Source: Stramenopiles sp. TOSAG23-6 (Eukaryota > Sar). From it: 20,928 nt of DNA. Under the pieces are notes generated by a model, which did not search any database, was not told the DNA's origin, and saw only the letters and a list, made by a program, of their open reading frames with translations. Positions 84-20,048 of this stretch are shown piece after piece. Numbering within the stretch: the stretch's first letter is position 1; the number at the start of each line of letters is the position of its first letter. The translations under genes were made by a program, and so were the position numbers. Location of the stretch: the NCBI GenBank assembly GCA_900128565.1, contig LT636032.1:1-20928 (forward strand), given 5' to 3'.

Positions 84-1324
84 ATGATTCTAAATTTTTG
101 CATACTAATTCAACACCAGCTAATGCAAATCCTTCACAGTATTCAATATCTTCTTTTGTCATATATTTTGGAAAAATATTGTTTTTTATTGTTTTGTTTT
201 TTTTGGTTAGGTACAAAATTTTCTATATATATATGTATTTTTTTTTTTGGAAATACATTTTTGTAGTAAAAATTTTGTTCTTCAAAAAAACAGTATTCAA
301 AAATGATGATAACGGACATTCCATCACGATTTAGCATTGTTTCATTAGGTACCATATATGCCTCAATTGAATGAGACAATGCATCCACGCCAGTTGCAAA
401 AGTAAGTAATGCAGGCTTCTTGCAAGTAAATTGAGGAATCAGTGCCGCAGATTTAGGAAGGAGCGCAGGATGACCAAAAACAACTTTGATTTCATCCACA
501 TCTTTAATCACGCAACTCTTACCACCATCAGAACCCGTGCCAGCAGTTGTAGGAATTGCACCAAATTCAGGGACAGCTTGTACCCAAGCTTCATCTACTA
601 TATTGGGTAGACCTCGACGACACGTTTCTGTAATAAAACGAGCAGTATCATATATCGTGGAAAATATTTTTTTTTTTTTGTAAAAAAATTCGTTAGGTAC
701 AAATTTTGGTATAAAAAAAAATTCAATTTTGAAAACGTACATCTGCAGTATGAAACGAAGGATTGCTTCGTGCTTCGGCTACAACGGCCATACCTCCTTT
801 TGCGGCATCTATTGGTCCACCGCCACCTACACCGATACATGTATTGCAAAAAATATTTTGCTTTCAAACGTTTTGTTAGGTACAAATTTTCAAATTTTCA
901 TTGTAAAAAAAACATATTTTACGTTCAATTTTGAAAACGTACATGAATCACATTTTCCTTCCTCAAAAGCAGCAGCAATGTGAGCAACGTCAGCGTGACT
1001 AGGGTCCGGTGTGCATTCGTCAAAGACAAAAGGTGTCATGCCAACATCACGCAACTGTGCTACAACTTCATCAACGATACCAAGAGCAGAAACTCCTGCA
1101 TCAGCTACAATAAGAGGTCTAGAGCATGATTGTGCTTTTAAGCGGTCAACGAAGAGTGCAAGTGCTTCTGTTCCTGCAAAAATTGACTGGTCTGGAAAGT
1201 TCAAGATGTTTAGGTCTGTATTGAAACTCAATGTTGGTTGATGGAAAGTATTTGATAAAGTCGATAACAGACGAAGGCGTTTCGCAGCTGAACTCACTAC
1301 GACCCGATGAGCATATCCCATCAT
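84..1324 (-). CDS. Iron-containing alcohol dehydrogenase, 5 exons or more, C-terminus beyond left edge
   Basis: Exons on the minus strand are 1324-943, 838-741, 649-318 and 160-84; the gene continues past the window in an intron. The joined frame is open throughout (296 codons plus 1 base). Family motifs seen: GGGGPIDAAK for dinucleotide binding, TTAGTGSDGGKS (the family usually has TTAGTGSE), and GVDALSHSIEAY containing a metal-ligand His. The family oxidises alcohols or hydroxyacids with NAD(P) and Fe or Zn; the ADHFE1 branch is mitochondrial. The N-terminus (MMGYAHRVVVSSAAKRLRLL) is basic and Ser/Leu-rich, fitting mitochondrial import, but this is inference. The two ATGs at the start are adjacent. 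Exon 4 (160-84) is only recovered by recognising the GTCCG intron start at 317. Substrate cannot be told from sequence. Confidence 0.88.
161..317 (-). other. Introner-type intron, dehydrogenase gene intron 3
   Basis: Starts GTCCGTTATCATCA, core GTACCTAACC, ends CCAAAATATAT. It is 157 nt, the longest with well-set ends. Splicing here joins GGA-AT to G-ACA and gives DGMTKEDIEYCEGFAL, a natural continuation of the dehydrogenase. Confidence 0.8.
650..740 (-). other. Introner-type intron, dehydrogenase gene intron 2
   Basis: Starts GTACGTTTTCAAAATTG, core GTACCTAACGAA, ends CCACGATATAT; phase 0. The join reads HTAD-DTARFITE. The intron-like core lies 43 nt before the end. Confidence 0.88.
839..942 (-). 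other. Introner-type intron, dehydrogenase gene intron 1
   Basis: Starts GTACGTTTTCAAAATTG, core GTACCTAAC, ends GCAATACAT; phase 1. The join restores CDSCIGVGGGGPIDAAK. CATGTA occurs at both junctions, the longest shared flank in the window. Confidence 0.88.
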
Positions 1325-1737
1325 ATTTAGGAGATGCTAGTACGTAATTGCTTCAAGAAATATATTGATCGGGTGTATAAATTTTTATACCACGAAGTGT
1401 CGTAAAGGAGCACTAGACTCCAATTGAACAATTCCACTGTAGAATTTGATTCGAAGGAGTCGAGTAAACTAGTAAAAGAATTTTACTCAATATAATAAGC
1501 AATAAAATTACGAAATTTTGACTGATTTTGACTGTCATTTGATTTTGACTTGACCGTTGATTCGCGATAATTAATAATTATGATAGGACATGTACATGTA
1601 GCTAGGTACAGTACCCTACTAGGGGGTATAATATATTTACTATAAACACGCAAATTCTTTCTCTTTAAAAGAATTTATTTAATTTGAAACATTTTTTTGA
1701 AGCGAAAGTAATGAAAAAAATATCTTTAAATGAAAAG
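1325..1737. other. Intergenic, 413 bp; promoter side of the dehydrogenase
   Basis: No ORF. It holds an inverted repeat GTATAAA/TTTATAC (1375-1381, 1384-1390) that also gives a minus-strand TATAAA about 60 bp before the dehydrogenase ATG, a possible TATA box. ATTTTGACT occurs three times (1515, 1525, 1542). Short palindromes ACATGTACATGT and GGTACAGTACC lie near 1590-1612. Function unknown. Confidence 0.4.
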
Positions 1738-2790: not shown

Positions 2791-3065
2791 GTAAAAAAAT
2801 CTAACGTATTATTTATTATTCGAACAAAAATAGCGATTTCGATTTGTCCGTTACGAGTTTTGTGATGTCCAAAATATCCCGGCGCTGGTGTAGGTAGTAC
2901 TTATGTAAAAAACAACCAACTGCACAGAGTTTGTTTACTTACATATTTCCAAGCATTAACTAGTACTGTAGTAACTAGGTGTATACTCACTGTATTGCCC
3001 TAGTATACTTTATTAATTTTCAATTATACTATTTTGATGTTTTACAATAAACAGCTCTATACAAT

Positions 3066-4340
3066 ATGGAGATGAAACTAAACGGTAACTCATTAACCAA
3101 GCAGACAAAAGTTGCCGTAGCAGCTGCTTCAACTGCCGCTCTATTGGCGCGTAAGTCTTCCATTCGAGCCCTGGCTATTGCAGAAAACTCAATTGCACGT
3201 ATCCAATGTAAACCACAACAAACAGATCGTGAAGTAGAATTACGAATTATCCATAAGTTAGACTCAAAAAATATCCATTTTGAAACATTTCCTAGTTTCA
3301 AAATGTTTGAAAACCAAGAAACAGGTAAAGTCCTCCACCGACATCCACAAGATGAAGGTACTAATTTCAGTGCTACTCATGATGGATCAACTTTAAATAA
3401 AGATGAAGATTTGAGGTATCAGTTACAGCTATATGATAGAGATCAAAATAGAAGAAATAGAAAATATATAGACACGAAATACAATGATCAAAATAGAATA
3501 AATAGAAGAAAATATATCGACACAAAATACAAAACAAAGCAGACACCAAAGCAGAGACCGAATACTGCACCTCAGAAAAATGTATTTAGCAGAAGAAAAC
3601 AAAGGATGCTTGCAATGGTTCCTGTAAAGACTAAGGACAGACCAACATCATCCAGTCCATTCAAACAACGAATTCGAAATGAAACACACGAAATACATGG
3701 AATAATTACAAACTTTTGTTTTCAAAGACAAAAAAATAAGTGCAGAACACCAACAGATAGATTCTTCAAAAAAACAGCACGTGTATATAAAGCACGACTC
3801 CCTAGGAATACAGTCCACCAATTAAGACATAACCCTAACCCTAGTAGGACAAAACAAAAAAAGAAGAACAATCAAAAAAATCAGAAAATGGTAATAATGG
3901 AGGACGATCCACTACTTGGTCGTTTTAAAAATAGTACTATAGTATCTACTGACATATCGAAATCTTCACTAATACAACGAAATCCTCGAACAAAATTATC
4001 TCCAAGTGATCTTTCCGATTTCAATTCTGTCCAATTTAACACTTTTGTGAAAAAAAAAAGTTTAAGGTTGAATGAAAAGAAAAAGAATGATGTACTAAAA
4101 AAATACAAAAATTCATATCAAACGCTTCCAACTGAAAACAGGAAAATGGTAATTAAGGGGACAGTATGGTACTCCAGCAGAGAAAGGCACACAGGTAGAA
4201 TATTTCATTATAATAGACAAGGCTTGCGGAAATGGACATTACCTAACCCTAATGACCCTAACCCTAACCCTCATGACGATTCTGAAATGTATAGGCCCAA
4301 AGAACAACGAAATATTTCCCATCTAGTTCGAATCATGTAG
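3066..4340 (+). CDS. Basic disordered protein with C-terminal WW-like domain
   Basis: A 424-residue single-exon protein, rich in Lys, Arg, Asn and Gln, with no family I recognise for most of its length. Residues about 368-393 match the WW pattern: a first Trp (TVWYSS), G-R-I-F-H-Y-N in the middle, a second Trp 22 residues after the first, and Pro three residues later (KWTLP). WW domains bind proline-rich peptides. A tandem repeat of DQNRxNRRKYIDTKY occurs twice near residues 128-158. CCCTAA runs encode NPNPS and PNPNDPNPNP. The N-terminus has an Ala-rich stretch (VAVAAASTAALLARK). ATG at 3066 is the first in frame. A role as a scaffold or nucleic-acid-associated protein is only a guess. Confidence 0.75.
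   Translation: MEMKLNGNSLTKQTKVAVAAASTAALLARKSSIRALAIAENSIARIQCKPQQTDREVELRIIHKLDSKNIHFETFPSFKMFENQETGKVLHRHPQDEGTNFSATHDGSTLNKDEDLRYQLQLYDRDQNRRNRKYIDTKYNDQNRINRRKYIDTKYKTKQTPKQRPNTAPQKNVFSRRKQRMLAMVPVKTKDRPTSSSPFKQRIRNETHEIHGIITNFCFQRQKNKCRTPTDRFFKKTARVYKARLPRNTVHQLRHNPNPSRTKQKKKNNQKNQKMVIMEDDPLLGRFKNSTIVSTDISKSSLIQRNPRTKLSPSDLSDFNSVQFNTFVKKKSLRLNEKKKNDVLKKYKNSYQTLPTENRKMVIKGTVWYSSRERHTGRIFHYNRQGLRKWTLPNPNDPNPNPHDDSEMYRPKEQRNISHLVRIM
3831..3844 (+). repeat. Telomere-like CCCTAA run in exon
   Basis: Reads aaccctaaccctag on the sense strand and encodes Asn-Pro-Asn-Pro-Ser in the WW-like gene. Confidence 0.8.
4242..4271 (+). repeat. Telomere-like CCCTAA cluster in exon
   Basis: Four or five CCCTAA-type units, interrupted by tga, encode a Pro-Asn repeat directly after the WW-like domain. 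Confidence 0.85.
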
Positions 4341-4458
4341 GCTTTATATCTTGTTGAATATTGTAGGTAATTAATTTGGTATGAAAAAAAAATCGTTGCT
4401 TCTCTCTACATTTTTTTAAAAGCTATATAAATAAACAAAAATAAACAAAAACAATCAT

Positions 4459-4476
4459 CTAACCCTAACCCTAACC
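4459..4476 (+). repeat. Telomere-like CCCTAA run between convergent genes
   Basis: ctaaccctaaccctaacc lies 120 bp past the stop of the plus-strand WW-like gene, probably in its 3' UTR, and just past the kinase stop. Confidence 0.75.
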
Positions 4477-4520
4477 GTCTAATTTTTCTAATAACCTAAC
4501 TGTCTAACTTTTCTAATAAC
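4471..4520. repeat. 25-bp tandem duplication over the kinase stop codon
   Basis: Two adjacent 25-bp units, 4471-4495 and 4496-4520, match at 23 of 25 positions. The second holds the last codons and TAG stop of the minus-strand kinase; the first is a copy just downstream. Confidence 0.85.
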
Positions 4521-5796
4521 CATGGATGAAGTTGTGCTTGCTCCCCATTATATCTACAATTCGGGTCTGGATGTAGAAGCCGACTAACTAAATCTTGGGC
4601 TTCTTTTGACACCGTTTTCCAAATTGGATGATCAAATTTTACATGTTGTACATGTTTGGAAGTCTTTACATATTTGTTAGGGTTAGGGTTACCAAAAAGC
4701 CAATTTCCAATTTGTTGTAGAGGTGTCCACTGTAGGTCATAATATTTTTCAACGTTTTTCTTAATGGGAAATGGAGGATAACCACAAAGCATTATATATA
4801 GTAAGCAACCGACGGAGAACCAATCAGCAGGAAAGCCATACTTCTGACCAATGTATATTGTGAAAAAATATTTCAAATTTTTGTAAAGTTTTTTGTTAGG
4901 TACAAAATTTCCTAAGAAAAAAATTCCAAGGAAAAAAAAAATGAATAATGAAAACGCATTTTCTTGACTTCTGGGGCTTGAAAGCCAAATGAACCACACA
5001 CTGTATCCGTGATTAAGCGAGGGTTATAGCTATTATTTGAGTGACTACTGCTGCTGATAAAGTCTTCTGTGACTTCATCTGACTCCATTTTTAAAGCTAA
5101 GCCGAAGTCACAAATTCGAATTTTGTATTTATTTTGGGTCATTGAAGGAGTGTTTAATAGCAATATATTTTCAGGTTTGAGATCTCGATGTAAAATACCG
5201 AGTGTGTGTAATGTAAGAACTCCACTGATAATTTGACTGATAATATCCGCTGCTTCACTTTCACTCAAATGTCCTTTTTTTACGATAAGATCAAATAATT
5301 CGCCACCATCAGCTAACTCAGTAACAATAAATATTCGTGATGGTGTTTCAGAAATATCATACACACCAATAATCGGGGAACACATTTGACGAGGATAATT
5401 TCCTAACCCTCCAACTAATCCTGAACCTACACTTGAAAAATATGGCTTTCTAGATTGTAGTTGTAGGAGAGCAAGAAAGCGAAGAATATTAACTTCGTTT
5501 TCAATTTTAGCACTAGCAGCAAGCTTGTGCCAGAACCCTTTGAAAACTATTTTGACAGCGCATGGTCTTGAACATTGATGAAGGTCTGCTGCAGCCCAAA
5601 CGTCACTAGTCCCTCCTCGATTAAGAAAGTAAAGCAACTTATACCGTCCTTTTTTTCCAACTAAGTTGCCTGCGGAATACGAAAAGTATTGCCGTAGAAA
5701 ACGTTTTACAGAGCTGCTACTATAAAAAAAACTACAACCTACAACAGCAATAGCTGCTATAGTGACATAACCTCCTTTAGGTGGATTAAATAGCAT
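4496..5796 (-). CDS. Membrane-anchored CAMK-like serine/threonine kinase, 2 exons
   Basis: Exons 5796-4958 and 4850-4496 give 397 residues. A hydrophobic stretch at about 10-23 (YVTIAAIAVVGCSFFY) is a likely N-terminal membrane anchor. The kinase domain then has a degenerate Gly loop (LNRGGTSDVWAA, about 58-69), the ATP-binding Lys in CAVK (K82), alpha-C Glu near 101, HRDLKPEN (catalytic D205), DFG (D230), APE (275-277) and the C-lobe ADWFSVGCLLYIMLCGYPPF typical of the CAMK group. All catalytic residues are present, so activity is expected. The poor Gly loop is the one weak point. FGNPNPNK in the C-lobe comes from a CCCTAA run. I chose ATG at 5796 since no ATG lies further upstream in frame. 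TAG stop. Confidence 0.9.
4677..4690 (-). repeat. Telomere-like CCCTAA run in kinase exon 2
   Basis: Plus strand reads TTAGGGTTAGGGTT; the kinase sense strand is CCCTAA and encodes Asn-Pro-Asn-Pro-Asn inside the C-lobe. Confidence 0.85.
4851..4957 (-). other. Introner-type intron with GC start, kinase gene
   Basis: Starts GCGTTTTCATTATTC (GC where the others have GT, as if TA were lost from GTACG), core GTACCTAAC, ends CACAATATACAT; phase 2. The join gives APEVKKIGQKYGFPADW, correct for a kinase activation segment. Confidence 0.9.
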
Positions 5797-6139
5797 TTCA
5801 CGGGTTGTTGCAATAACAAAAGTATAAGTCAGATTCAATGTATATGAAAAATTATTTGGCCAAAAAAAAAAGATGATCGACACAAGCACCAAAAAACGAC
5901 AGACACCAAAAAATCGAAATAAATCAATCGCAATAATCGCGTTTTTCGTTCACAGGAGCGGCTTCTTCGCTCTTTCGCTTTATAGAATCTAATCGCTCTT
6001 AACGCGGTTATATTTTGAGATCGACACTACATTTCAATTTCGCGATTCTGAAGGTTCTTACATTCTATTAAATGCAAAATTTTTAGAATCATAAGATAAG
6101 TAAACAAAAAGGAAGTTATACTTTTCCTAGTTACAAGAT
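5797..6139. promoter_or_regulatory. Divergent promoter region, kinase and WSC-kinase genes
   Basis: 343 bp between two divergently read genes. No ORF with an ATG and no recognisable motif beyond AT-rich stretches and several tcgc/gcga words (about 5930-6050). It must hold both promoters by position only. Confidence 0.4.
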
Positions 6140-9119
6140 ATGATATTTGCAATAGTTCTATTTACGTTAACGCTTATTCCAAGTGTTTTATCTGTTGAGA
6201 AAGTTTTACCAAATCCTTTTATATTCTTTGGTTGTTATCGCCACGATTCACAAGCTCAGGTATCTAAATGGGGGTCACAGATCGATGGATTTACTTGGGA
6301 AGAGTGTGCACAAACTGCAGCTGCAGCTGGTAGCCTGTGGTTTGCAATGGAATTTCCTCAAGGATTCAAAAAAGTCGGGACTGCCAACTGTGGTCATCGA
6401 GGCCATTTCTCATTAGAAGGCAGAGTACCAAATTCCATGTGCGAGGCAGAAATGAATAAAGGAAAACGTCTCGGTGGTTCAAAATTGATGGCAGTTTATT
6501 TCAATCCTTCAGAATATAAGTTGAACTTTCAGTCACTTTTACATTCAGAGTTTTTATTAATTTGTAAACTTCAAGTACAAATTGACAATATATCACATGT
6601 AATATATTTTGATGCTGAAGAAGATTTAATGCTAGTAGCACATACTTTTGCTATAGAACATGGTATTTATCCTATTACAACTACTGTAGATTCACTCTTT
6701 CCTTCTTGTACGTTGTCTACTTTTACTTTCATTTTTTTTTCGTACGAAATTTCGTACCTAATATTTTTTTTCCATATAAAATCCAAATCCTATAATTTTT
6801 TTTCTGTATTGTCCCTGACGAATTTTAAATTTTTGAAATATTTTTCAGCAATATTTGGGAAATTTATCAAAGAATAGATTTTCCTGTAAAGTCAAAACTA
6901 TTAGCCGATGATAAAAAAAGCCCTAACCCTAAGGCATTTTCTACGAATTCATCTCGTCCTTTACTAATTAATCATAATATGTATAGAAAAGCGAAACAAA
7001 TAGCTCGGATATCTTCGGATGTAGATCGCATGTACGTTTTCAAAATTAAATTTTAAAATGTTTTCATACGAAATTTTGTACCTAACGATTTTTTACAAAA
7101 AAAAATATTTTTCACAATACATTGGTCTTGGAGTCTCTCAAAATGGATTGCTCAATAGATTATTGATTCAAGGTGAAGGAATCATGTCTATAAATTCTCC
7201 AAATATACAAATCCCTGATGCGTATTTATTGAATAAGGCATCCGTTATGATTGGCCTTCAAAATATTGATGAGTATCATCAAAACACGAAATATAAGTCT
7301 CCAACTAACTTGTTCGATGTACATGGTACTGCTCATAATAATGACAAAGATGATGATTATAACTTTGAACAACGAAAAAATGTCCAAACTAGATCATATA
7401 TTGAAAAAAGCAAAGAATCTGGAGAAGCAGACATTTATTTTATTAGAAAAGGTGAAAGAAAAAATACTATAAAAAATAATAGTGATGATAGTAAAAGCTA
7501 TGATAATAGTATGATCAAACTGAAAGCCCCAGTTCAATATGTCTTCAAGGATAGATCAAGATATTGGTTAATTCAAGAGCAAATGATTCGAAACAAACCT
7601 GCTTCAATGATCACTGTACTTGAGTCAATTGTACGTGAAGCTTACTTGGATGAGTTGGCAATGTTATTAGGCTTACAAAACTCATATGTTTCGTCTGCAC
7701 CTGCATGTACGTTTTTATCATGAATTTCAAATTTATTATCGTTTTTAGTACAAAATTTTGCACCTAAACAAAAAAGATTTTTTTTTTTGAAATATTTTTC
7801 CACAATACATACATATGTTTAAAACGATCTTTTGATGGTCATAGATGTATTGTGAAAAAAATTGGCATTCTTCAAGATTTTGTGCAAAGTCCATTTAAAA
7901 AAAAATCACACAAGAAAAAAGATCAAAATGATAAAGATGAATTTTTGCCAGGAGATTGGCGATCACTTTTAAGAATGGATGAAGCTACGCCTGAAAGAGT
8001 GAAGGAAATTTCGCAACGTTCATTTCAGGATGTAGCCTTACTTTTTTTTGTACGTTTTCAACATCAATTTCATGTTTTTTTTTCCATAAAAAATTCAAAC
8101 CTAAAGAAATTTAAATGTAAACATATTTTCTCACGATACATATCACAGCTCATCCTGATCTTCATGGGGGGAATCTTCTAGCTCATACTCAAAAACTACA
8201 AAAACAGAAAGAAACAAATGATGATAAATTTGGAAAAATTGAAATGAAACTAATTGATGCCGACATGACATTTAACCACTCTCCAGGCTGTCATGTTGGA
8301 ACAATACGAATGCCTTGTATTTTTGGAGGAGCTGCGACGTGTACGTTATCCACATTTATTTCAATTTTTTTTTTTTTTGAGTTTAAAAAAAAACATTTTT
8401 CAATTTTTTTTTGAGTTTAAAAAAAAAACATTTCATACCTAACAATTTTATTTTTTTATTTTTTCACAATACATTCTTTTCAAGTCCATGTATATTTTCA
8501 AAAGGTTTCCATAACAAGAATGGTTTGGATGCATGTCCGTCATTTCCGCATATACATCTTCCATTTGATGATCACTCAATTGAACTTATACGAAATTGGA
8601 ATCCTGAAAAAATTAGAGAAAAGTTTTTTCGTAATGAATCGATTATTGAAGACGCCTGTTGGCGTCTTGATATATCTCCTTTTGTTTGTCCCTCAATGAA
8701 AGACATTTTTCGTAATGGTACAGTAGAATTATTGATGTTACGAATTGAAACACTTAAAGAAATTCTTGGAATATATGTATATTTTCATCGTGAATTTTAA
8801 ATTTATTTTTTCGTACGAAATTATGTACCTAACGATTTTTTATCCAAAAAAAAATATTTTTTTCACACTACATGATCAAACAAAACAGAATAATACAAAC
8901 AATAGTGATATGAAACAGATGTATGACGAAAAAGATGAAATGGAAAATGTTTGTGTCGATGAAAACAAAAAATGTAGACAGTTTAGTGCAAAAAAAACAA
9001 TTTTGGAGGTATATGAAGAATTTGCCCCTCTTTACATATATAAAATTCTGAGATCTGGTGATAAAGTATTTGCTCATTATAATAGAAATGAATTTGTTTT
9101 AGGTGGCGCGATGCATTGA
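6140..9119 (+). CDS. Secreted protein with WSC-like domain and atypical kinase-like core, 7 exons
   Basis: Exons 6140-6707, 6848-7031, 7123-7706, 7811-8049, 8142-8340, 8475-8776, 8874-9119 give 773 residues in one frame. Residues 1-18 are a signal peptide (MIFAIVLFTLTLIPSVLS). Residues about 29-122 resemble a WSC domain: FGCYRH, FTWEEC, FAMEF, then Cys84 and Cys101; WSC domains bind glycans. Residues about 400-570 look like a protein-kinase-like fold: LESIVREAYLDELAMLLGL, then ITAHPDLHGGNLLA (D531 and N536 spaced as in HRDxxxxN) and MKLIDAD (D564) in the DFG position. The core is closer to PI-kinase, HipA or aminoglycoside-kinase patterns than to Ser/Thr kinases. The fusion suggests a secretory-pathway or surface kinase. 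The ATP-binding Lys is not assigned. The exon 2 start is uncertain by 3-6 bases. Confidence 0.75.
6708..6847 (+). other. Introner-type intron 1 of WSC-kinase gene; 3' end uncertain
   Basis: Starts GTACGTTG, has TTTCGTACGAAATTTCGTAC and CCTAAT, but runs much longer past the core and ends near TTTTTCAGCAATATTTGG. Frame allows exon 2 to begin at 6848, 6851 or 6854. Splicing after CAG would lead to an in-frame TAG within ten codons. Confidence 0.65.
6921..6932 (+). repeat. Telomere-like CCCTAA run in exon 2
   Basis: ccctaaccctaa encodes Pro-Asn-Pro-Lys on the sense strand of the WSC-kinase gene. Confidence 0.8.
7032..7122 (+). other. Introner-type intron 2 of WSC-kinase gene
   Basis: Starts GTACGTTTTCAAAATT, core GTACCTAACGATT, ends CACAATACAT; 91 nt, phase 2. 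The join reads DVDRM/I to IGLGVSQNG with the frame kept. Confidence 0.9.
7707..7810 (+). other. Introner-type intron 3 of WSC-kinase gene
   Basis: Starts GTACGTTTTTATCATG, core GCACCTAAAC, ends CCACAATACAT; 104 nt, phase 1. The join gives SSAPAYICLKRSFDGHRC. Confidence 0.88.
8050..8141 (+). other. Introner-type intron 4 of WSC-kinase gene
   Basis: Starts GTACGTTTTCAACATC, weak core AACCTAAAG, ends CACGATACAT; 92 nt, phase 0. The join builds LLFFITAHPDLHGGN, the putative catalytic motif. Confidence 0.88.
8341..8474 (+). other. Introner-type intron 5 of WSC-kinase gene, with internal duplication
   Basis: Starts GTACGTTATCC, core ATACCTAACAATT, ends CACAATACAT; 134 nt, phase 1. A segment of T-run, GAGTTT and A-run is present twice (about 8359-8397 and 8399-8433), which accounts for the extra length. 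Confidence 0.88.
8777..8873 (+). other. Introner-type intron 6 of WSC-kinase gene
   Basis: Starts GTATATTTTCATCGTG, has TTTCGTACGAAATT, core GTACCTAACGATT, ends CACACTACAT; 97 nt, phase 0. The join is ILGIY-DQTKQ. Confidence 0.88.
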
Positions 9120-9493: not shown

Positions 9494-9606
9494 AAGTACT
9501 GTGAAAAAATATTTCAAAACATTTTTAATTTTGTTAGGGTTAGGTGTACCACAATTTTCTATGAAAAACTAAATAAATTTGAAATTGAAATGATAAAAAA
9601 ACGTAC
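9494..9606 (-). other. Introner-type intron before the orphan exon, CCCTAA-expanded core
   Basis: Starts GTACGTTTTTTTATC, core ACACCTAACCCTAACAAAA in which the branch-point-like CCTAAC is duplicated as a telomere-like run (plus strand 9534-9544), ends CACAGTACTT; 113 nt. Confidence 0.75.
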
Positions 9607-9656
9607 AATCATCAGCACTTGGCCCCGAATCACCAAAAACACTATTTTCTTCTCCC
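9602..9656 (-). repeat. 55-bp exact copy of the right end of the window
   Basis: Minus-strand 9656-9602 is identical to plus-strand 20874-20928 over exactly 55 bases. The next base out differs (T here, C there), and the nine before it (AAGAAGAAA) match again. The segment covers an exon end and GTACG. Confidence 0.95.
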
Positions 9657-10134
9657 ATTTCTTCTTTGTAGATACGAAGCCACGTCGACCAGGGCGACGT
9701 CCTGCACATGCTTTATAAAGGTCATCGAATGAAACACCCTTTGAGTTGACAGATTTTTCCTCATCTGAGTCTGAACTATCCGAACTATCAGAACTATCAG
9801 AACTATCGCTATTACATCCTGGAATGATGACCTTGAATTTTGAATTTGACGCATAGATATCCGCAAAATGACCAAGATCAAAGCTTTTACTTTCCTCTTC
9901 TATTTTCTCAGCTTTGTAGCCGAGACCGTCGTCTTCATCTTTTTTGACTGCTTTGATGTGCGTTGTAATTCCACTCTCAGTCTTTCCAAGACCTTTTCCT
10001 TTCCAGCCCATACCTGCCAACATTCGCTTTGACCAATCATTTGGACCAGTTGCATTCTGCTCATTGACAGTGGAACACATCTTCGATAACGTTTTTCTCG
10101 ATGCACATCGAATTGTCTCTGCAATTGCCGTCAT
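9607..10134 (-). CDS. G-patch protein, PINX1/GPATCH4-like; 3' part doubtful
   Basis: Residues about 34-75 match a G-patch: DWSKRMLAGMGWKGKGLG, then a basic tail GITTHIKAVKK and DDGLGYK, as in PINX1 and GPATCH4. G-patch proteins activate DEAH-box helicases in ribosome biogenesis or splicing. A Ser-Asp microsatellite (about 109-126) and an acidic patch follow, then SFDDLYKACAGRRPGRRG, comparable to the family's LFxACxGRTAHKGAR segment, so the frame is right to about residue 160. After that, inside the 55-bp shared segment, the frame reads IVFLVIRGQVLMI, which is hydrophobic and unlike the family. The true 3' part is probably elsewhere. M1 at 10134 or M19 could be the start. Confidence 0.75.
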
Positions 10135-11503: not shown

Positions 11504-13438
11504 CTAAATAACATTTGGAGAACGACCAACGATCACCATACTCTGACGAATTTGCTTACGATTCATATTTTCACCTTTAATCATATTTGTCCTTCTTTGC
11601 TCATGCATTGTCAAAAAAAAAAACAGACTCAAAATGTTTTTGTTAGGTACAAAATTTCGTATGAAAAAAAAAAACTAAATTTGAAATTCACAATGAAAAC
11701 GTACATATTTTCGTTTATCCCAATGTCTTTTAAATCCTCCCGTCCAGGACGATTCGCCTATTTTGAGTCTCTGGAATTGCAAATGTTTTTCTTCATTGAA
11801 GTTTCTCCGTGTTGAACGTGAAGCAGCCGCACTTTGAGTTCGCTTATATTTAGATTTAGATGAAATACCAGTTTTATTCTTTGAATTCATTCCGCGATAT
11901 TTTCGATCAGAGTGTCGTGTAAGTGGCGCTGAGGAAATTTGCCTTCCAGATCTATTTTGTTTTGTACCAAAATTTGTAATTTTTGTTCTATTTCTATCGT
12001 ATTTTTCTGTAACCAGAGATTCCGCACTCTTACCAAGATATTGCTCATATTGCTTCGTAGTCACATCTACGCTTTGTCTTGATTTTCTTGAAGCTGATGA
12101 ACATAGTCTTTCACTTCTGGTTGCTGGTGGTCTTCTATGGCCTGCATCTGTCGAGCCAGGGCGTTGTGTAGATCTCAAGGTACCCGCTGTGGTGGGTCGT
12201 GCAGTTTTTCTTTTCATACGTCTATTTGTACCAAATTCTGTACCTAACGAACGCCTTTCTTGTTTCGGACTTATTGGAGCCTTTACAGCGATAAGTCTAA
12301 AGTTCATATCATTATCAATATGATTTGAACGATTTACTACGCGAAAAGCGGACTGAGCTGTTTCGTTAGACAACGGACCACTTTCAGTATTATTCCAGGC
12401 AATTTTTTGGTTGTAATGCTTGTTCTGTATTGTGGCTGAACGTTTTTGGTTATGATGCTTGTTCTGGTGTGTGACTGAAGGAATGACGTTGTCCTTAAGT
12501 ATTGTGAAAAAATATTTCAAAAAATCTAAAAAAAATTGTTAGGTACAAAATTGCCTATGAAAAAATACATTCGAAATTGAAAAATAATGAAAACGTACAA
12601 TATCATTAGAATTCGTCAAATTACTTTGAAAACTATTACTTGAACTACATCTTGAACCACGATCTCGAGTACTACTTGTAACACTTTGTTCATGAGCAGC
12701 AATTTCAATTCGGTACGCATTTGCTAAAGCTGTACCGATACTACTATTATCTGAATTTTGGACTAATGGCGGCGTTGGAATGAATGCCGATCTACTTTCG
12801 AAATCAAAATTATCAAAGGTATTACTATGAGTTGGCTTTACAGTACGTTGTTGTGTGTTCTTTTCAATAGACTCTTGCTCTTTGTGTACAATACTTTCCT
12901 TATTTTCTCCTAGAATGGTTTTGTTAATACTATCTTCACCGACGTTGGTTTCACCGAAAAGATCAACTATTGATAAATATTCTTCGTCACTACTGGTACA
13001 ATATTGTGTAGTTGAATTTGACAAAAATCGTTTTGGCTTATGCATATTTCGTTTATACTTATTTCCTCCGTATACTAGTATTTTTTTCCTATTTTGAAGC
13101 ATCGTTTTCTTTCTTGGTACGAACTTTTTAACACTTTTAGAAGTGACTACATCAGGGGAGAATATTCCAGAAATTGCATTATCAAAGCTGCCCCTTGGAT
13201 CTACACTTCGCTTATGTTTTTTATAGCTATTACATTCATTGTTGTAGACTCGCCGAGCATTCACGAGTTTCTTATCAAATACTCGTACTGATTTCTTTCC
13301 TACTGGAGATACCAATACACTTTTCTTGTGTAACGTGTGCGACGTTTTGTTTACCTTTTTCTTCTTCGGTGAATAGGACATAAGCACCTTGCGCTTTCCC
13401 GAATTAGCAAGTTTAGACTCCTTAAACCTTCTGTCCAT
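11504..13438 (-). CDS. Basic disordered protein of unknown function, 3 exons
   Basis: Exons 13438-12599, 12496-11705 and 11602-11504 give 576 residues. The last, 33-codon exon (EQRRTNMIKGENMNRKQIRQ onward, TAG stop) is short but keeps the frame exactly. The protein is rich in Lys, Arg, Ser, Asn and Thr, with no domain I recognise. The N-terminal third is strongly basic (PKKKKVNKTSHTLHKKSV), the middle has acidic patches (SSDEEYLSIVDLFGE), and the C-terminal third has Arg/Pro/Thr motifs such as RPTTAG and RPGSTD. PKKKKV resembles a classical nuclear localisation signal, so a nuclear role is possible but unproven. ATG at 13438 is the first in frame. The composition resembles the WW-like gene at 3066-4340, but no alignment is evident. 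Confidence 0.75.
11603..11704 (-). other. Introner-type intron 2 of the basic disordered protein gene
   Basis: Starts GTACGTTTTCATTGTG, has TTTCATACGAAATTT, core GTACCTAAC, ends GACAATGCAT; 102 nt, phase 0. The join reads WDKRKY-EQRRTN. Confidence 0.88.
12497..12598 (-). other. Introner-type intron 1 of the basic disordered protein gene
   Basis: Starts GTACGTTTTCATTATT, core GTACCTAACAATT, ends CACAATACTT; 102 nt, phase 0. The join reads NSNDI-KDNVIPS. It shows that ACTT is an accepted 3' end. Confidence 0.88.
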
Positions 13439-13739
13439 ATTAATGATTTGGTTTGTTACAAGATAATCATTGGTCAATATTCATTCTATAACGCATGTAG
13501 ATCTTACCGTGTGAGAAAGATACTCTACAACTATTATAATTATTTTGAAACCCGTATAGTACGTACGTTTTCAAAATTCGGTTTTTTTAACCGATAGATT
13601 TTTTGAAAGCCCACGAAATCAAATCGGAGTGGCGTGAAACGTTTAAAATTTTGAAATTTTTTTTAAACCTCGCGCAAGTGTCGGAAAAGCTGTCGAAAAT
13701 GTCTCAAAAATCGTTCCTCTAAAGCAAAACAATAAAACA
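13439..13739. promoter_or_regulatory. Divergent promoter region containing a solitary introner 5' end
   Basis: 301 bp between divergent genes. At 13563-13578 it holds GTACGTTTTCAAAATT, identical to the start of several introns, in plus orientation, but no CCTAAC core or ATACAT end follows. A short inverted repeat CGGTT/AACCG lies next to it (13579-13593). It may be a decayed introner or the 5' half of a 5' UTR intron of the F-box gene. Confidence 0.45.
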
Positions 13740-15140
13740 ATGANAAAAAACAGAAGAAATAAACCACGCAAGGATAAGAAAAAAACTAATAATAGATACT
13801 TTAAACAGGAAAAATACCAAAATCGTAAACATCGAACGAATCAGAAAAGTTCTCAAACTCGGAGTCAACATTTTCAGTCAGGAAAATGTTCGAGTCAAAC
13901 GACAGAGCCTAGCGACATAGCAGTTTCAATAGCGGCGCTTATTTCCTCAAAACCAATCGGGAATGCAAAAAATACTAGTAATATACAACGTACAATGCAC
14001 GAGAGCAAACATGAAGCGATAGAAAAATTTTCTTTATTGGAACTGGTTGATAATAACCCTTGCTGGATTGATACTTTACCAAGGGTACTCTTGCTGGAAT
14101 GCTTTTCATTTCTAGGAACAGATTCTCTTCATAAAGTTATATGTATAAGATGGCAAGAATGTTTACGTTCTAAAGCTGCTTCATATTGTATATGGCATCG
14201 TATATATTTTCATACATTTCCAACATTACCAGATTTCTTCCATCTTTATCAACATTCAAATGAAATTTCTGAATGCGATTCCTGGTTAACAGCTTGTTCT
14301 CGAAGGTGGGAGCAAGATAATCAATGGCTCAATGAATCCTCATCATGGAAAGAGTTAAAACTCTCATGGTATTCGCGTGAAGAATTGCATGTTGGTCCAG
14401 ATCAGGAGTTTAAGGATATTCGTAGCGCGTTAGATTATGTATTGTTTCATCATTAAATACAAATTTATTTTTTTTACTATGAAAATTCTGTACCTAACGA
14501 AAAATTCAAATGTAAAACATATTTTTTCAGAATATATGGTGGACCTTTTGACAGAATTGTTGTACATCCTGGTCAATACAGACCTTTATTAATTACTATA
14601 GTTAAACCTGTTGAAATAATTGGTCTTACCAAAAATAATCCAAAAATGCTAGAAAATAATTTCAGAGACAACGTTTCAAACTCTAATCCAAACCCTCAAA
14701 AAGTTGAAAAAGACAAATTTCTCTTACTTCAGGACACACCCATAAAACTCGATATTCACATTGAAGTTAAACTAAAGTCACATCAAACAGCCAGAATGGC
14801 AAATTTTCATATTTGTTCTTCAAGCAATGCTGATTTTCCCGTTGATTCGTTATCTGGTGTAGAGAGTGTAAGTGGATGCCTGCAACTTGATGATTGCATA
14901 GTAGAACGTGCGAATGTTTCCTTGTTAAAAAAGCATCCTTCACCTTTGGCCGGTCGTCGAGATGGTTTAGGTAATGGTATCATTGTACCTTCACGCTGTA
15001 TTTTCAAAAAGTGTGTATTTTATGACACAATCTGCCCAGCCACACTTGACAATTTAAGGTATTCAAAAACAATTAATTGTGTTTCAAATGAGGATGAAGT
15101 TCCATGGCCTAATGGAGAAGACTTAGTACTACCAATTTAA
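13740..15140 (+). CDS. F-box protein with beta-helix-like C-terminus, 2 exons
   Basis: Exons 13740-14438 and 14538-15140 give 433 residues. After a basic tail, residues about 109-155 match an F-box: WIDTLPRVLLLECFSFLGTD, then LHKVICIRWQECLRS. F-box proteins link substrates to SCF ubiquitin ligases through Skp1. Beyond residue 220 the pattern FKDIRSALDY, then VVHPGQYRPLLITIVKPVEI and IGLT, is that of the first turns of a right-handed parallel beta-helix as in FBXO10/FBXO11 and pectate-lyase-like proteins (often preceded by a tIqeAid phrase). The remaining helix is short or divergent. Codon 2 contains an n (13744). A Trp-rich region at 160-215 links the two parts. TAA stop. Confidence 0.82.
14439..14537 (+). 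other. Introner-type intron of the F-box gene
   Basis: Starts GTATTGTTTCATCATT, core GTACCTAACGAAA, ends TTTTTTCAGAATATAT; 99 nt, phase 0. The join is SALDY-GGPFDRIVVHPG. Ending at the CAG would give AAT-ATA-TGG-TGG-ACC-TTT-TGA, a stop, so AG is not the 3' site. Confidence 0.9.
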
Positions 15141-15618
15141 AAAGTCAATGCTAAACAAATTGAATTATGTAGAGATGAAAAAATATTAGATAGTACTAAA
15201 TTGTACTAAATTGTCTGGAGAAATATATTATATATAAAAAGAAAATTTGTTGTAGTACTTTTTACATTTTTTTTTGGTACAAAATTTTAAATTTTGGTAT
15301 TAATACGTGGAATAAGAATTTATCAGTTTTAGACTTTGGAAAATACTTTCGGAAAGACTTTCCGGAAAGTACTCTTTGGTACAAAATTTTGTAATTAAAA
15401 TAAAAATTCATCAAGTTTCCTATCTTCGTCAAAAAAATTCCGGAAAGTCTTTTTTTTGGTACAAAATTTTGTACTTAACGTTCAAACGTCGATTTTTTTA
15501 AAATTTTCTACAGGAGCGCGCGGCAATCTGCCCCTTTTACCATTTTTTATTTAAAAATTAGATTAGATTAGATTGGAAGTTGGAACGAGTCGAAACTTTG
15601 CGTTTGAAATTTTGGAGG
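15141..15618. repeat. Intergenic, 478 bp, with repeated introner-like core and CCGGAAAGT boxes
   Basis: GGTACAAAATTTT occurs at 15276, 15378 and 15458, the last two as the palindrome GGTACAAAATTTTGTA; the third continues to CTTAACG, close to the intron core. CCGGAAAGT occurs at 15362 and 15440, each about 10-16 bp before such a palindrome, and (with 15350-15370) forms a ctttcCGGAAAG palindrome. It precedes the esterase gene and follows the F-box gene. It could be a pair of diverged element copies or upstream control sites. Confidence 0.55.
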
Positions 15619-18497
15619 ATGCACCGTTGCTCCATTGTCATTCTTTTCTCATTAATCAGTACAGTCTTGGGCGTCCCCGCTAGCAATCTCGGCTCCAACA
15701 CGTATAGTCTTGGCGATGGTGCCGGCAACGACAGAGGGTTTCACGTGCGTGTACCTGCGGGAACGGGCCCATTCCCCGTGGCCATATTGCTGCACGGCAA
15801 GGGCGGAAGCGGTACCGGAATGCTCTCTGACTTTGTCGATAATGTAGCATTAAACCCCTTGTCCAACTCACACATCCTCGTTGCACCCGATGGTAAGGAC
15901 AACTCATGGAACATTGTGGCTGAGCCGTCAGAGCTGGACGACGTCAAATTTGTAGGCACAACTCTGGTTAACCATTTGGTGTCCTTTGCAAACGTTGAGG
16001 CAAAGTTCACGTTGATCGGGCATTCTAATGGAGCAGGTTTCACGAACCGCATCCTCATTGAGAACGACGACGTTCGCATCGTTGCTGCTGTCACCGACGT
16101 CTCGCAGCTAAATGAGCGTCAGTACCGCAACTCCAATTTCTATATTGGAGGGACTAACAACGACTACACCACCGTCAAGAATACACTCACGGCCCGCAAG
16201 CTGCTTCAGATCACAGGCGCACAAGATACCACCATTCCTGCCAATGGCGGGGAATCCCCTATTCCGGGTGCGCGGAATAACCCTGAGACCAAGCTTAGTT
16301 TTGTGGATTGGAAGGTTTCCATCTATGCATACGCGGTTGCATACGGGTTTAAAGCACCAGCGAATGTAACAAAGGACGACAACGAACTCACACAAATGAG
16401 CTTTCTAAATGGCAATGTTCAAGCATACAACTTCAAAACTGGAGGTCATGGAATGTTTCCTGGTGATGGTGACGCAAACTCAAAGAAAGCAACGGCTGTT
16501 GTCCTTGCTTTCCTCGGACTCACAACAACAACACCAATACCTACACAAGTTTCAAAAACCATAAAAATTGATTGGTTATCTGGATTCGGAGATGCATCAA
16601 AAAGAAAAAGCACAGCAAATCCGGGTGATAGTGTAGAATTCTCATGGATTGGACAACATAATGTGTTAGAGCTGCCAACAGAGACAGCCTTTGATGATTG
16701 CGATCTGGGCTCTTATACCGTCGTTGGGGGTGAATCAATAACATCAAGTACGGATGCAATTACCTCTCCAGTTACTTTCACGATTCCATCAAATGCTGCA
16801 GGACAGACTATATATTTTGCATGTGGTAAGACAGGGCACTGCACTGGCGGACAGAAGCTGGCTGTTGTTGTGGAAAGTCCTGCAACTCCAGCCCCAACAC
16901 CAGCAACTCCAGCACCGACGCCAGCAACTCCAGCACCGACGCCACCACTTCCAGCATGTCCTCTTCTCAGAATCAATGTATTGACCGCAGATTGCTCTTG
17001 CAACGGAGTCACATGTTACAAAGGTCTGTTTTGTTACGATAATAAATGTGAAAAGGTAGCCCAGGCGGCACCAACTCCAGCACCGACGCCACAACTTCCA
17101 GAATGTATGGATGATCCTTCAAATGCATCGATCGCAGATTGCTCTTGCAACGGAGTCACATGCTACAAAGGTCTGTTTTGTTACGGTAATAAATGTGAAA
17201 AGGTAGCCCAGGCGGCACCAACTCCAGCACCGACGCCACATCTTCCAGAATGTCGTGAGGATCCTTCAAATGCATTGAACGCAGATTGCTCTTGCAACGG
17301 AGTCACATGCTACAAAGGTCTGTTTTGTTACGGTAATAAATGTGAAAAGGTAGCCCAGGCGGCACCAACTCCAGCACCGACGCCACATCTTCCAGAATGT
17401 CGTGAGGATCCTTCAAATGCATTGAACGCAGATTGCTCTTGCAACGGAGTCACATGCTACAAAGGTCTGTTTTGTTACGGTAATAAATGTGAAAAGGTAG
17501 CCCAGGCGGCACCAACTCCAGCACCGACGCCACATCTTCCAGAATGTCGTGAGGAGAGGATCCTTCAAATGCATTGAGCGCAGATTGCTCTTGCGACGGA
17601 GTCACATGTTACAAAGGTCAGTTTTTTTATGATAATAAATGTGAAAAGGCAGCCAAGGCGACACCAACTCCAGCACCGACGCCACAACTTCCAGCATGTC
17701 TTGAGGATCCTTCAAATGCATTGAGCGCAGATTGCTCTTGCGACGGAGTCACATGTTACAAAGGTCAGTTTTTTTATGATAATAAATGTGAAAAGGCAGC
17801 CAAGGCGACACCAACTCCAGCACCGACGCCACAACTTCCAGCATGTCTTCAGGATCCTTCAAATACATTGACCGTAGCTGATTGCTCTTGTAACACAGCC
17901 ACATGCTACAAAGGTCAGTTTTGTTACGATAATAAATGTGAAAAGGAAGCAAAGGTGACACCAGCACCAACACCTGATGCTTCGTCAAGTCCAAACTTTA
18001 CTCCTTCAGATGATGTAACACCAGCACCAACTCCTTCCAAAGAACAGACCATAACTCCAAATCAAGATACCAAATTCCAATCTGATGTTTTGATAATCTT
18101 TCAGCAGCAATTTGATCCTTCAGCAAATTACTCCGCACTCGCGAAAGAAATTTGCGATGCAGTTCAAACAAAGACAGCTAATAAAGGAGCAACAATGACA
18201 ATAATTGGGGCAAATTGTGAAAACAGTATCAAATTCCGTAGTGGTTCACTTGTAGCTGAATTCAAAGTCACTTTAGAGGCACCAGCAAAGAGTTCAGCGG
18301 CATCAATAAATAACACTGTGCAGCTACAAGTTCTTGACCTCTTACAACAAAAGAAAGTCAATAATGGTGCCACACCAACAGTCAAGGTGAACACTTCAAC
18401 AGTACAAGATGTCACAATTGTCGGGTCGTTTGCGTCACAGGCGAGTTTATCAAGTATAGTGATGACTTTGATTATTGTAGAAATTCTTATGAGTTAG
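15619..18497 (+). CDS. Secreted esterase, stellacyanin-like domain and Cys-rich repeats; one 5-bp frameshift
   Basis: Taken across a 5-bp duplication at 17551-17560 the frame gives 957 codons; as written it stops at 17577. Signal peptide MHRCSIVILFSLISTVLG. Residues 40-300 are an alpha/beta hydrolase like LpqC, PHB depolymerase or feruloyl esterase: LLHGKGG (oxyanion hole), GHSNGAG (nucleophile S137), AQDTTIP (D203) and GGHGMFP (H277). Residues about 314-418 are a cupredoxin: QHNV (H347), then YFACGKTGHCTGGQKL (C402, H407, Q412), as in stellacyanins, whose axial copper ligand is Gln. Seven Cys-rich repeats with APTPAPTP linkers follow, then about 170 residues and a hydrophobic C-terminus that looks like a GPI signal. 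No introner, and the 5' part is GC-rich, unlike its neighbours. AATAAA lies at 18529. Confidence 0.85.
16990..17965 (+). repeat. Seven-unit 147-bp tandem repeat encoding Cys-rich modules
   Basis: The word gattgctc starts units at 16990, 17137, 17284, 17431, 17583, 17730 and 17880. Spacing is 147 bp except 152 (the 5-bp insertion) and 150 (one added Val codon). Each 49-residue unit has six Cys (DCSC, TCYKG, FCY, NKCEK, PxC) and a Thr-Pro linker. Units 2-4 are almost identical, a recent expansion. Units 5 and 6 have FFY in place of FCY. Confidence 0.97.
17551..17560 (+). other. 5-bp tandem duplication (GAGGA) that breaks the frame
   Basis: Other units read cgtgaggatcc; here it is cgtgaggagaggatcc. 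The copy adds 5 bases between repeat units 4 and 5 and causes a stop at 17575-17577. Removing it restores one frame to 18497. Confidence 0.95.
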
Positions 18498-18915
18498 TTT
18501 TGGATTATATACATCAAAAAAAACATACAATAAAAATACTTTTACAAAAAAAAATCTTTTATTTAATAAAGCGATAGAATAGTGGATCAGATCTCACTCG
18601 TGTATTTTCTTTCTACCTATGCGCCTGGTTGCAATTGAGTCCTGAAGCAATTCGTGATACACCATTTGCCGTACCACCAAACTCACCAAATGGTGCAAAA
18701 ATTCGTTTCCATCTAGATCTCAGATCAGTCGAGAAAATACAGTTTTCGAATTTTTACATGTTTCACAATTGAATGCTACCTGAAGTATTTTTAAATGAAA
18801 TGAAATGAAATCTGTACTGAAGAAAGTATCGTCAAGTATCGTGCCGAAAAAAACTCAATTGAAAACGTTTTAGTAAAATATAAAAGAAAAATTCGTTTTT
18901 AATATACAAAAATTC
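18498..18915. other. Intergenic, 418 bp, between convergent genes, with an ORF fragment
   Basis: Probably the 3' UTRs of both genes. On the minus strand about 18750-18613 is open for about 46 codons and reads protein-like (DLRSRWKRIFAPFGEFGGTA) but has no ATG and is not attached to a recognised splice site. It might be a remnant or an unrecognised exon. Confidence 0.35.
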
Positions 18916-20048
18916 TTATAGGTGAGTGTCTCTTCTCCCTGAGCTAAGAATTCTCCGACGTTCTTGAAGGTACCTGAGAATAATCCGAGTCAATATTTCT
19001 TCTTCTCGTGATTGAAATCTAGTTTGAAATCTACTATTACAAAGGTATAATTTGTAGAGTAAGAAAATTACATACAATAATCTAATAATTATTCTTAGGA
19101 TTATGTATAGTGAAAAATATTTTTTTTTTTTGGTTTAAAAAAATCGTTAGGTACAAAATTTGGTACAAAAAAAAACATTTGAAATGATGAAACGTACATG
19201 AGCCCTTGTAGGAAAATAAAAAGGAATACATGCTGCCACGAAATACGAAAAAATGTAGAGGAAAGTTCATTTGCTTCAATTTGAAATAGTTGCCACTCTA
19301 CTATATCGCGACTAGTATATGGTTTACCTTGTATATTATTCAAGAATGAAGCTTTGATAATTTTGAAAAATAAATGAAAAATATTTGACATTTTTCTCGA
19401 AGCTGTTCGTCTTTTTATAGAATTTCGCAAGCTCTTCATCACATCTTTACTATCTTGGAAGAAAAGATCCACCTTATCCTCCTTTTGTGTTTGATTAAAA
19501 TCGTTTCTATAGGTTAATAGGCCACTTTGAAGTTCGGTGAGAAGCTTTGGATGTCTGTATAAATATTTGCCACTATCAACTTCCCAATTATAAAGTTTTG
19601 AATCTACTTCAATTCTATCATATTGTTGATCACTACACCCAGCGTTATCTAAACTTACAAGTGACATAAAATAATTACCCTCGCGTATTGCTTTTGAAAC
19701 TTTGGGGCAAATTCGAGCTTTGTCACGCACAGTAGAATTTATTAATACATTATTTGTAGTAATCAAATAGGTAGCCAAACAGAAGAGAGAAACCCAGAAA
19801 AAAAGCCAAAGCGATAAAGATTGGTAAAAAACCTTCTGTTCACGTCGATTGTCATATGCACGTAGGCGATAAAAATGTATACCTAAGTCAGAGTTTGTAT
19901 TACTTTCTAAAGGTCTAAATAACCAGTGTTCTCGTGGGCGGAGTAGCTGCCGATATCTTCCGTATCTCATTTGTCCTTCATCATCAGTCAAAGTAGTTAC
20001 TCCAAATACTCCATCATGTGGCCTTTCATGGACACCAAATGATCTCAT
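18916..20048 (-). CDS. Membrane protein of unknown function, 2 exons
   Basis: Exons 20048-19198 and 19102-18916 give 345 residues. A membrane helix lies at about 76-98 (SLSLWLFFWVSLFCLATYLI) and a second long hydrophobic region spans the intron, about 267-305 (HVFLFIFLQGLM, then IILRIIIRLLYVIFLLYKLYL). Between them about 170 residues contain Cys in RICPKVS and NAGCSDQ plus NxS/T sites (INST, FNQT), fitting a lumenal or extracellular loop. The N-terminal 70 residues and the short Arg/Glu-rich tail (QSREEEILTRIILRYLQERR) would then be cytosolic. I do not recognise the family. Exon 2 is open for 61 codons up to TAA and restores the second helix, which supports the join. Confidence 0.78.
19103..19197 (-). 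other. Introner-type intron of the membrane protein gene
   Basis: Starts GTACGTTTCATCATTTC, core GTACCTAACGATT, ends CACTATACAT; 95 nt, phase 2. The join gives FLQGLIILRIIIRLL. Confidence 0.9.

Follow-up and report, generated by a model that had tools for sequence, protein, structure and literature searches.

A repeated family of introns ending mainly in AT, probably introners, in the genome of Stramenopiles sp. TOSAG23-6

Few rules of eukaryotic gene structure are as constant as the AG at the intron end. Contig LT636032.1 of Stramenopiles sp. TOSAG23-6 (GCA_900128565.1; 8,027,113 bases in 408 contigs) raises the question of whether a set of introns can end otherwise. The window analyzed here is this entire contig (C82; 20,928 nt), which carries genes for an iron-containing alcohol dehydrogenase (Fe-ADH), an SDR enzyme, a CaMK-like kinase, a G-patch protein and a family-2 glycosyltransferase. 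Its coding regions are interrupted by 15 complete introns of one sequence family, 91 to 157 nt in length (Table 1), and by another that is truncated at the contig edge. Fourteen of the complete introns begin with GT and one with GC. None ends in AG; the 3' ends are ACAT (8, one of them within a longer AATATACAT), ATAT (3), ACTT (2), GCAT (1) and ATTT (1). A sequence-only reading of the window had described 14 such junctions, beginning with GT (once GC). These are real and their boundaries hold, except that the end of intron 6708 was corrected to 6856 (CAGCAATATTT^GGG, the caret marking the cut; flank TT, end TT), giving PS^WEIYQRID, and ATTT was left off the list of ends, all of which are otherwise present. 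That reading also placed a T before the GT. The T is there, and the flank is more fully (A/T)T^GT, with the same dinucleotide again at the intron end in 13 of 15 introns (AT in 10 and TT in 3). The unequal cases are introns 8050 (flank TT, end AT) and 8341 (flank GT, end AT). We consider it highly likely, judging from the sequence comparisons below, that the family consists of introners, i.e., short non-autonomous transposon-like elements, with a duplicated (A/T)T target, which would be excised by a U2-type spliceosome at GT...AC(A/T)T^.

The family is found across the genome. Its consensus is (A/T)T^GTAYGTTTTC ... TTCGTACGAAATTTTGTACCTAAC ... TTTTTCACAATACAT^ (the core was also given as GTACCTAAC), with a length of ~96 nt (median 96) and a 3' terminus of the form ...TTTTTCACAATACAU in place of CAG. 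The exact core pattern had 19 matches genome-wide and its reversed control had 0; two core patterns scanned against the viral contigs gave 0 matches. We fetched 23 stretches of ~10 kb, some centered on known matches, and omitted the allelic L030/L031 from most counts. The counting set of 21 stretches plus the window amounted to 229,245 bases (2.9% of the assembly), in which a family profile detected 64 full-length and 33 partial copies (E below 0.01). Since 64 full-length copies were found in 2.9% of the assembly, the genome probably contains hundreds. Forty further loci were picked for a TT flank; of the 235 core motifs then scored with position matrices, 90 were accepted, corresponding to 77 distinct copies. 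The matrices ignored the last two bases, so the end counts were not forced. The distinct copies start with GT (72), AT (3) or GC (2) and end in AT (52), TT (21), GT (2), AC (1) or AG (1), the TT ends being inflated because 31 of the 77 came from the TT-picked loci. An earlier set of 52 copies, assembled before those loci were added, with a looser cut-off and a few copies misplaced at contig edges, ended in AT (41), TT (5), GT (2), AC (2), AG (1) and CA (1). The AT-starting introns (ATATGTTTT; L019 8961, L021 6347 and L024 9772) all end in AT. Pairwise, copies whose flanks are unrelated are up to 93.6% alike. Allelic or redundant contigs are present in the assembly (C13/C14, C64/C69).

The branch-site A of the CCTAAC core lies at a median of 38 nt from the intron end. 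The longest distances (to 70 nt) are overestimated, as the script placed the branch site too early in at least three copies (L052, L059 and L063). The spliceosomal appearance of the 5' end and branch core, remarked on from the window alone, is supported by the GTAYGT and CCTAAC consensus, with the reservation that the core is altered in introns 6708 (CCTAATA) and 8050 (AACCTAAAG). As regards membership in the U2 type, the 5' GT site and CTAAC branch are present, and a 3' AG was found in 1 of 77 copies only.

Reading frames on either side of the introns were assigned with a codon model, for which 84 long open frames served as the training set. Across the GT...(A/T)T cut, the two frames agreed for 67 of 76 copies (9 disagreed), and for 48 of 48 where both sides were clear. 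Joining the exons at this boundary left the frame open in 73 of 76 copies, vs. 22 and 20 of 76 when the downstream exon was moved by 1 or 2 nt. As the reading frame determines the cut only to within a multiple of three, we turned to protein alignments to place it exactly. The junction of Fe-ADH intron 1 falls inside CDS-CIGVGGGG and is ungapped against two PDB chains. For an intron in a DEAD-box motif VI (YI^HRLGRTARA), the junction is ungapped and a single gap lies a few residues before it. The AT-starting intron of the coronin gene (L019) gives KGWC^MMPKR, with no gap relative to two PDB chains or to the environmental protein P0121 (68% identical); another protein, P0144, is identical where it overlaps but starts in the second exon. 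Two junctions were uninformative: the PDB alignment is gapped at Fe-ADH intron 2, and the kinase junction has a length difference of one residue alongside. The Pfam score of Fe-ADH was 112.9 bits for the spliced protein vs. 46.8 and 36.4 for the pieces, and that of the kinase was 168.8 bits vs. 101.7 and 57.5. The family introns are thus predicted to be removed precisely, with the original coding sequence restored.

Could the boundaries be misplaced and these be ordinary GT-AG introns? An AG located 8 nt or more past the script's branch-site call, which such a reading could use, is present in 19 of 77 copies and absent from the other 58. Its use would break the frame in 14 of the 19, and in two (L059 and L063) the AG precedes the CCTAAC core. 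AG is depleted between the branch site and the intron end, with 21 occurrences vs. 51.1 expected from composition. In the L017 intron at 4744-4834, a well-placed TTTTTTCAG 29 nt from the branch site is bypassed and the 820-aa downstream frame requires the ACAT cut, which bears out the earlier view that real introns have a non-AG 3' end. Two window introns (6708 and 14439) had been singled out for a CAG near the end whose use gives an in-frame stop. Both CAGs are present, but three introns have AG within the last 12 nt (the third is 9606-9494, with CACAGTACTT). The stop does arise with the same 5' site; starting from a GT 4-5 nt further in, however, both introns can also be read in frame as GT...CAG (by hand: PSCTNIWEIYQ; ALDYVLIYGGPFD). 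Taken together, misplaced GT-AG boundaries are a very improbable explanation for the family.

The last two intron bases covary with the two exon bases before the GT, which indicates a 2-bp target-site duplication. Among 54 strict-consensus copies, the 34 with a TT flank end in TT (18), AT (15) or GT (1), and those with an AT flank end in AT in 17 of 17 cases; the remaining three have flank GT and end AT (twice) or flank CT and end AG (once). The association was significant in the 2x2 part of these copies (Fisher p 9e-5). A permutation test on 46 copies not picked by flank gave covariation at position -2 (39 matches vs. 32.6 expected, p 0.001). Flank position -1 is nearly always T, and covariation at -3 to -6 was absent. 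The last two intron bases would accordingly be one half of the duplication. It would follow from the covariation that the element proper is GT...AC, completed by the 2-bp duplication, and a repeated family carrying such a duplication can be taken as introners.

Where the two halves agree, cuts at GT...AT, TG...CA and AT...AC are indistinguishable, because the message is identical whichever half is removed. Genome-wide, a changed flank with an AT end was found at 66 places and an AT flank with a changed end at 10 (p 3e-11), in a count that includes duplicated contigs and in which the CCTAAC core is missing from the displayed letters of 4 or more of the 10 and of a few of the 66. Since the upstream half has changed far more often, the downstream half appears to be constrained, which favors the downstream half as the 3' splice site, the upstream half as exon, and GT...AT as the preferred cut. 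The asymmetry could also come from the insertion itself sometimes supplying the A, which the TT/TT cases oppose only partly. A different account makes these AT-AC (or TT-AC) introns, with the upstream repeat copy intronic and the cut two bases earlier, as in minor (U12) introns. AT^GTAYG..ATAC^AT can indeed also be parsed as ATGTAYG..ATAC, and 3 of 77 copies begin with ATATG. The 5' motif of U12 AT-AC introns, ATATCCTTT, is nevertheless missing from the GTAYGTTTT consensus, whose 5' end is of the U1/U6 type (GTAYGT). In addition, the upstream dinucleotide is much the more variable of the two, and copies with a changed flank (GT^GT, AG^GT) still end in AT. The AT-AC account is unlikely, and we infer that the cut is GT...AT rather than TG...CA or AT...AC, which give the same product.

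The orientation of the copies argues for removal at the RNA level, as DNA excision would show no strand preference. Of 64 full-length copies, 45 lie in the sense direction of the neighboring coding sequence and 1 is antisense to it on one side; for the remaining 18, no coding region was called within 45 nt. Among the 33 partial matches, 7 are sense and 3 are antisense, another 9 fall at contig edges, and 14 lack a call. Several contigs terminate in family introns (the partial matches at edges), and assembly breaks or false joins at the repeats are possible. The short direct repeat, the precise restoration and the short inverted ends (GTAT..ATAC only, by eye) would also suit DNA-excised elements such as the internal eliminated sequences of ciliates, or spliceosome-free splicing through an end-joining stem, as in proposals for euglenids and hemistasiids. 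However, the 45-to-1 sense bias of full-length copies is unexpected for DNA excision, and both the 5' site and the branch site are conserved. Folding of 76 copies showed no clear stem (median z -0.65 vs. an approximate shuffle; ends paired in 17 of 76). Neither DNA excision nor a joining stem therefore has more than a slim chance of being correct. GTAYGT and CCTAAC suit pairing with U1/U6 and U2, respectively, and the family introns are most likely removed from RNA by the spliceosome.

In the mechanism that we propose, an introner would insert in genes at (A/T)T, often ahead of G, and the insertion would duplicate the target dinucleotide. The element would supply the 5' splice site GTAYGT, the branch site CCTAAC (its A ~38 nt ahead of the intron end), as well as a U-rich tract and ...AATAC. 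With the duplicated (A/T)T the intron would be complete, its 3' end being YAT (or YTT) instead of YAG. An ordinary U2-type spliceosome would then join at GT...AC(A/T)T^ and restore the original coding sequence exactly. The final U may be tolerated via pairing with G+1 or via altered 3'-site factors. Terminal pairs other than G-G are discussed as tolerable if similarly shaped in a study on Fritillaria (PMC13326754), and a G-U or A-U terminal pair may form in the family introns.

Some observations weigh against this interpretation, in addition to the in-frame GT...CAG alternatives and the make-up of the 66-to-10 count given above. Because the copies descend from common ancestors, neither the depletion of AG nor the conservation of the ends can be counted as independent events. 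No empty (element-free) site was found among the fetched loci, the 5 matches being a locus against itself. U2 and U6 were not found in searches of low sensitivity (46 of 464 and 47 of 916 candidates scored), and U2AF35 was not found in a low-sensitivity search from which no candidate was taken up; these absences are uninformative.

Of the splicing factors that the sequence-only reading proposed to look for, Prp8 was found and is conserved, and U2 and U2AF35 went undetected at the low sensitivity just mentioned. Prp8 is conserved across the 1406 residues read, within a 2021-aa open frame. Its top match among the 120 listed (8000 candidates scored) is a partial record from Haematococcus that spans 57% of the query; next among those listed come two environmental proteins (81 and 79% identity), followed by oomycetes (77-78%). 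For coronin, Hondaea and Spumella come first among the named matches listed. A U2AF large-subunit-like gene was located on C376 (L079 3-1775, minus strand). The protein has an RS-rich start and two RRMs, each of which matches domain 1 of the U2AF model (positions 171-265), with no clear domain 2; the match to the human domain 2 PDB entry is weak (6.9 bits). It is the sole one of 9 U2AF large-subunit model matches to cover the C-terminal part (408-508), in an assembly that may be incomplete, and an Ectocarpus relative is tenth among the matches listed. Together, the Prp8, coronin and U2AF2-like matches make it likely that the organism is a stramenopile. This diverged U2AF large subunit may have a bearing on 3' site choice. 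We tentatively suggest, without leaning toward it, that introner invasion made GT-AT the main intron class and that the spliceosome was re-tuned to YAU (and YUU) beside a few YAG, perhaps via the diverged U2AF large subunit.

Canonical introns are found in the same genome. The sequence-only reading had taken the 3' site rule to be changed, and as a genome-wide statement this was not borne out: GT-AG introns with TACTAAC are present on C13/C14 and C73. The intron in a TBC-domain gene on C13 (L021 8183-8285; GTAAGT...TACTAAC...CAG) has an allele on C14, and its end may sit 3 or 6 nt off by frame alone. L021 carries family introns as well. A leucine-rich-repeat-like gene on C73 has two introns (by hand), TT^GTAAGT..AATACTAAC..CAATTCAG^GGC and TT^GTAAGT..AATACTAAC..CAATTCAG^GGG, and the joined frame reads SLALHYILSGEIPKEIGQLTNLTSL. 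The scripted join had a coding score of -10.6 vs. -58.9 for the retained intron; the joined score is negative because the second intron follows immediately. The exact-pattern search that led to C73 showed no enrichment (7 vs. 10 in the control), and beyond the C14 allele 2 of 6 places held (C13 and C73).

In ~229 kb we counted 22 interruptions without a family copy, among which only L021 8183-8285 is a convincing GT-AG intron. By eye, the other 21 are gene ends, small frame shifts, a masked contig, a decayed family copy missed by the model (L018) and a case in the SDR gene of L028 (2001-2160, candidate 2036; GTAATT..CTATTGAC..TTCTACAG). The GT-AG cut of this last candidate was rejected, as the joined frame mismatches the downstream SDR frame. 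An automatic GT..CTRAY..YAG scan accepted 2 of 658 (one being the L021 intron) vs. 8 of 704 for YAC, 13 of 876 for YAA and 12 of 836 for YAT, and the accepted YAC, YAA and YAT introns mostly overlap family introns. Three predicted canonical introns with TACTAAC, at two loci, thus coexist with the family. They look few, with one convincing case vs. 64 full-length family copies in 229 kb by a non-exhaustive search.

No GT-AT introner in a stramenopile was described in the titles and abstracts of the open-licence literature searched. The sequence-only reading knew of no case with this 3' motif. According to the Fritillaria study, however, AT is the commonest 3' end in F. borealis and F. pellucida (34% and 44%), so that part did not stand. 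In F. borealis, canonical introns make up 5%, and U2AF1 and U2AF2 are duplicated. The core spliceosome is kept in Fritillaria. Its commonest non-canonical classes begin with AG; nearly all AG/AC and AG/AT introns finish with a YAY triplet, and a YAY is frequent ahead of the 5' site (PMC13326754). The two systems are alike in that AT is the commonest 3' end (mostly CAT here) and canonical introns are few. They differ in the start (GT in 72 of 77 copies here, AG there), in the 2-nt repeat and possibly in U2AF2, with one U2AF2-like gene found here (PMC13326754). For comparison with the YAY before Fritillaria 5' sites, flank position -3 is C or T in 50 of 77 copies and -2 is A in 37 of 77, with TT flanks over-sampled.

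The introners of Amoebophrya are invasive repeated introns bordered by direct repeats of 3-5 nt, with mostly non-canonical ends, a canonical minority, widely variable splice motifs and inverted repeats of 8-20 nt able to form hairpins (PMC7789003). The present family resembles them in its invasive repeated introns, border direct repeats and canonical minority, and differs in its fixed ends, 2-nt repeat and lack of a clear hairpin (PMC7789003). It is akin to the Fritillaria 3'-AT introns and the Amoebophrya introners and a member of neither as defined there, because it has a 5' GT, a 2-nt repeat and no hairpin seen. Introners of diverse eukaryotes, including Florenciella and Aureococcus, show transposon-like gain; some families take a splice site from target-site duplications of 3-9 bp, and most preserve messenger RNA length. 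That survey, which was based on annotated introns, mentions GY/AG sites (PMC9860276). Recruitment of a splice site from the duplication and the kept message length are shared with our family, whereas here the recruited 3' site is non-AG and the duplication is 2 nt (PMC9860276). Hemistasiid diplonemid introns are dominated by non-GT-AG types with conserved spliceosomal parts, with ends that are not conserved and strong end-to-end pairing (PMC12621601). The family is like them in non-GT-AG dominance and unlike them in its conserved ends and the lack of a clear stem (PMC12621601).

If the spliceosome has indeed been re-tuned as tentatively suggested above, the organism would be a living system that can dispense with the near-universal last G throughout its genome. 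The family would in any case offer a natural test of splicing in which the final G is lacking. A mobile element appears to have broken the AG rule many times in one genome, the duplicated target giving part of the 3' site. The GT-AG introns alongside make both kinds comparable within one cell, and the unequal repeat halves at 8341 and 8050 offer clean junction tests. Many multi-exon genes of this genome would be expected to be overlooked or cut short by gene finders that assume AG, and surveys of introners that start from annotated introns would probably miss the family.

Table 1. Family introns in the window, with predicted junctions (^, cut) and the evidence for each.
Feature	Position	Strand	Junction	Evidence
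Fe-ADH intron 1	839..942	-	CAT^GTACG..AATACAT^GTATCGG	nhmmer E 6.7e-07; ungapped spliced-protein alignment, two PDB chains, at CDSCIGVGGGG
Fe-ADH intron 2	650..740	-	GAT^GTACG..GATATAT^GATACT	nhmmer E 2.4e-09; frame preserved
Fe-ADH intron 3	161..317	-	AAT^GTCCG..AATATAT^GACAAA	position-matrix match, absent from window nhmmer matches; frame by hand
Fe-ADH intron 4, truncated by contig edge	1..83	-		nhmmer E 6.4e-09
CaMK-like kinase gene intron	4851..4957	-	AAT^GCGTTTTC..AATATACAT^TGG	nhmmer E 1.1e-09; exons joined by hand
Diverged family intron	6708..6856	+	CTT^GTACG..CAATATTT^GGG	partial nhmmer match 6708-6772, E 4.3e-07; frame
Family intron	7032..7122	+	CAT^GTACG..AATACAT^TGG	nhmmer E 2e-12; frame
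Family intron	7707..7810	+	CAT^GTACG..AATACAT^ACATATG	nhmmer E 1.4e-11; frame
Family intron	8050..8141	+	TTT^GTACG..GATACAT^ATCACAG	nhmmer E 3.1e-06; frame
Family intron	8341..8474	+	CGT^GTACG..AATACAT^TCTTTT	matrix match; partial nhmmer match E 0.0044; frame
Family intron	8777..8873	+	TAT^GTATA..ACTACAT^GATCAA	nhmmer E 3.2e-13; frame
G-patch gene intron	9494..9606	-	ATT^GTACG..CAGTACTT^GGC	nhmmer E 2.2e-07; frame by hand
Family intron	11603..11704	-	TAT^GTACG..AATGCAT^GAGC	nhmmer E 1.5e-12; frame
Family intron	12497..12598	-	ATT^GTACG..AATACTT^AAGG	nhmmer E 1.5e-14; frame
Family intron with internal CAG	14439..14537	+	TAT^GTATT..CAGAATATAT^GGTGG	nhmmer E 6.4e-06; frame by hand
Family intron	19103..19197	-	CAT^GTACG..TATACAT^AATCC	nhmmer E 9.3e-10; frame

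In the G-patch gene, the frame breaks at ~9668-9678, a short way upstream of the intron, which makes the upstream frame less secure at this junction. An inverted repeat of 65 bp (98% alike) joins 9602-9666 and 20864-20928; the contig stops in the second G-patch exon copy, which reads in the second of the two frames of that gene, at the intron start GTACG. Core-like fragments were also seen outside introns, at 12223-12255 and 15335-15506 of the window, and one is antisense within a coding region. Short telomere-like CCCTAA runs occur within and between genes (window 3833-3841, 4256-4264, 4463-4471, 4680-4688 and 6921-6929), some of them translated as NPNPN; runs of at least 2 units numbered 9 in 229 kb vs. 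0-1 for five control hexamers. A tandem array of ~147-bp units at 16816-18002 encodes a cysteine-rich, proline-rich repeat. One spacing in it is 152, with the frame shifted near 17553-17577, which may be a sequencing error or a broken gene.

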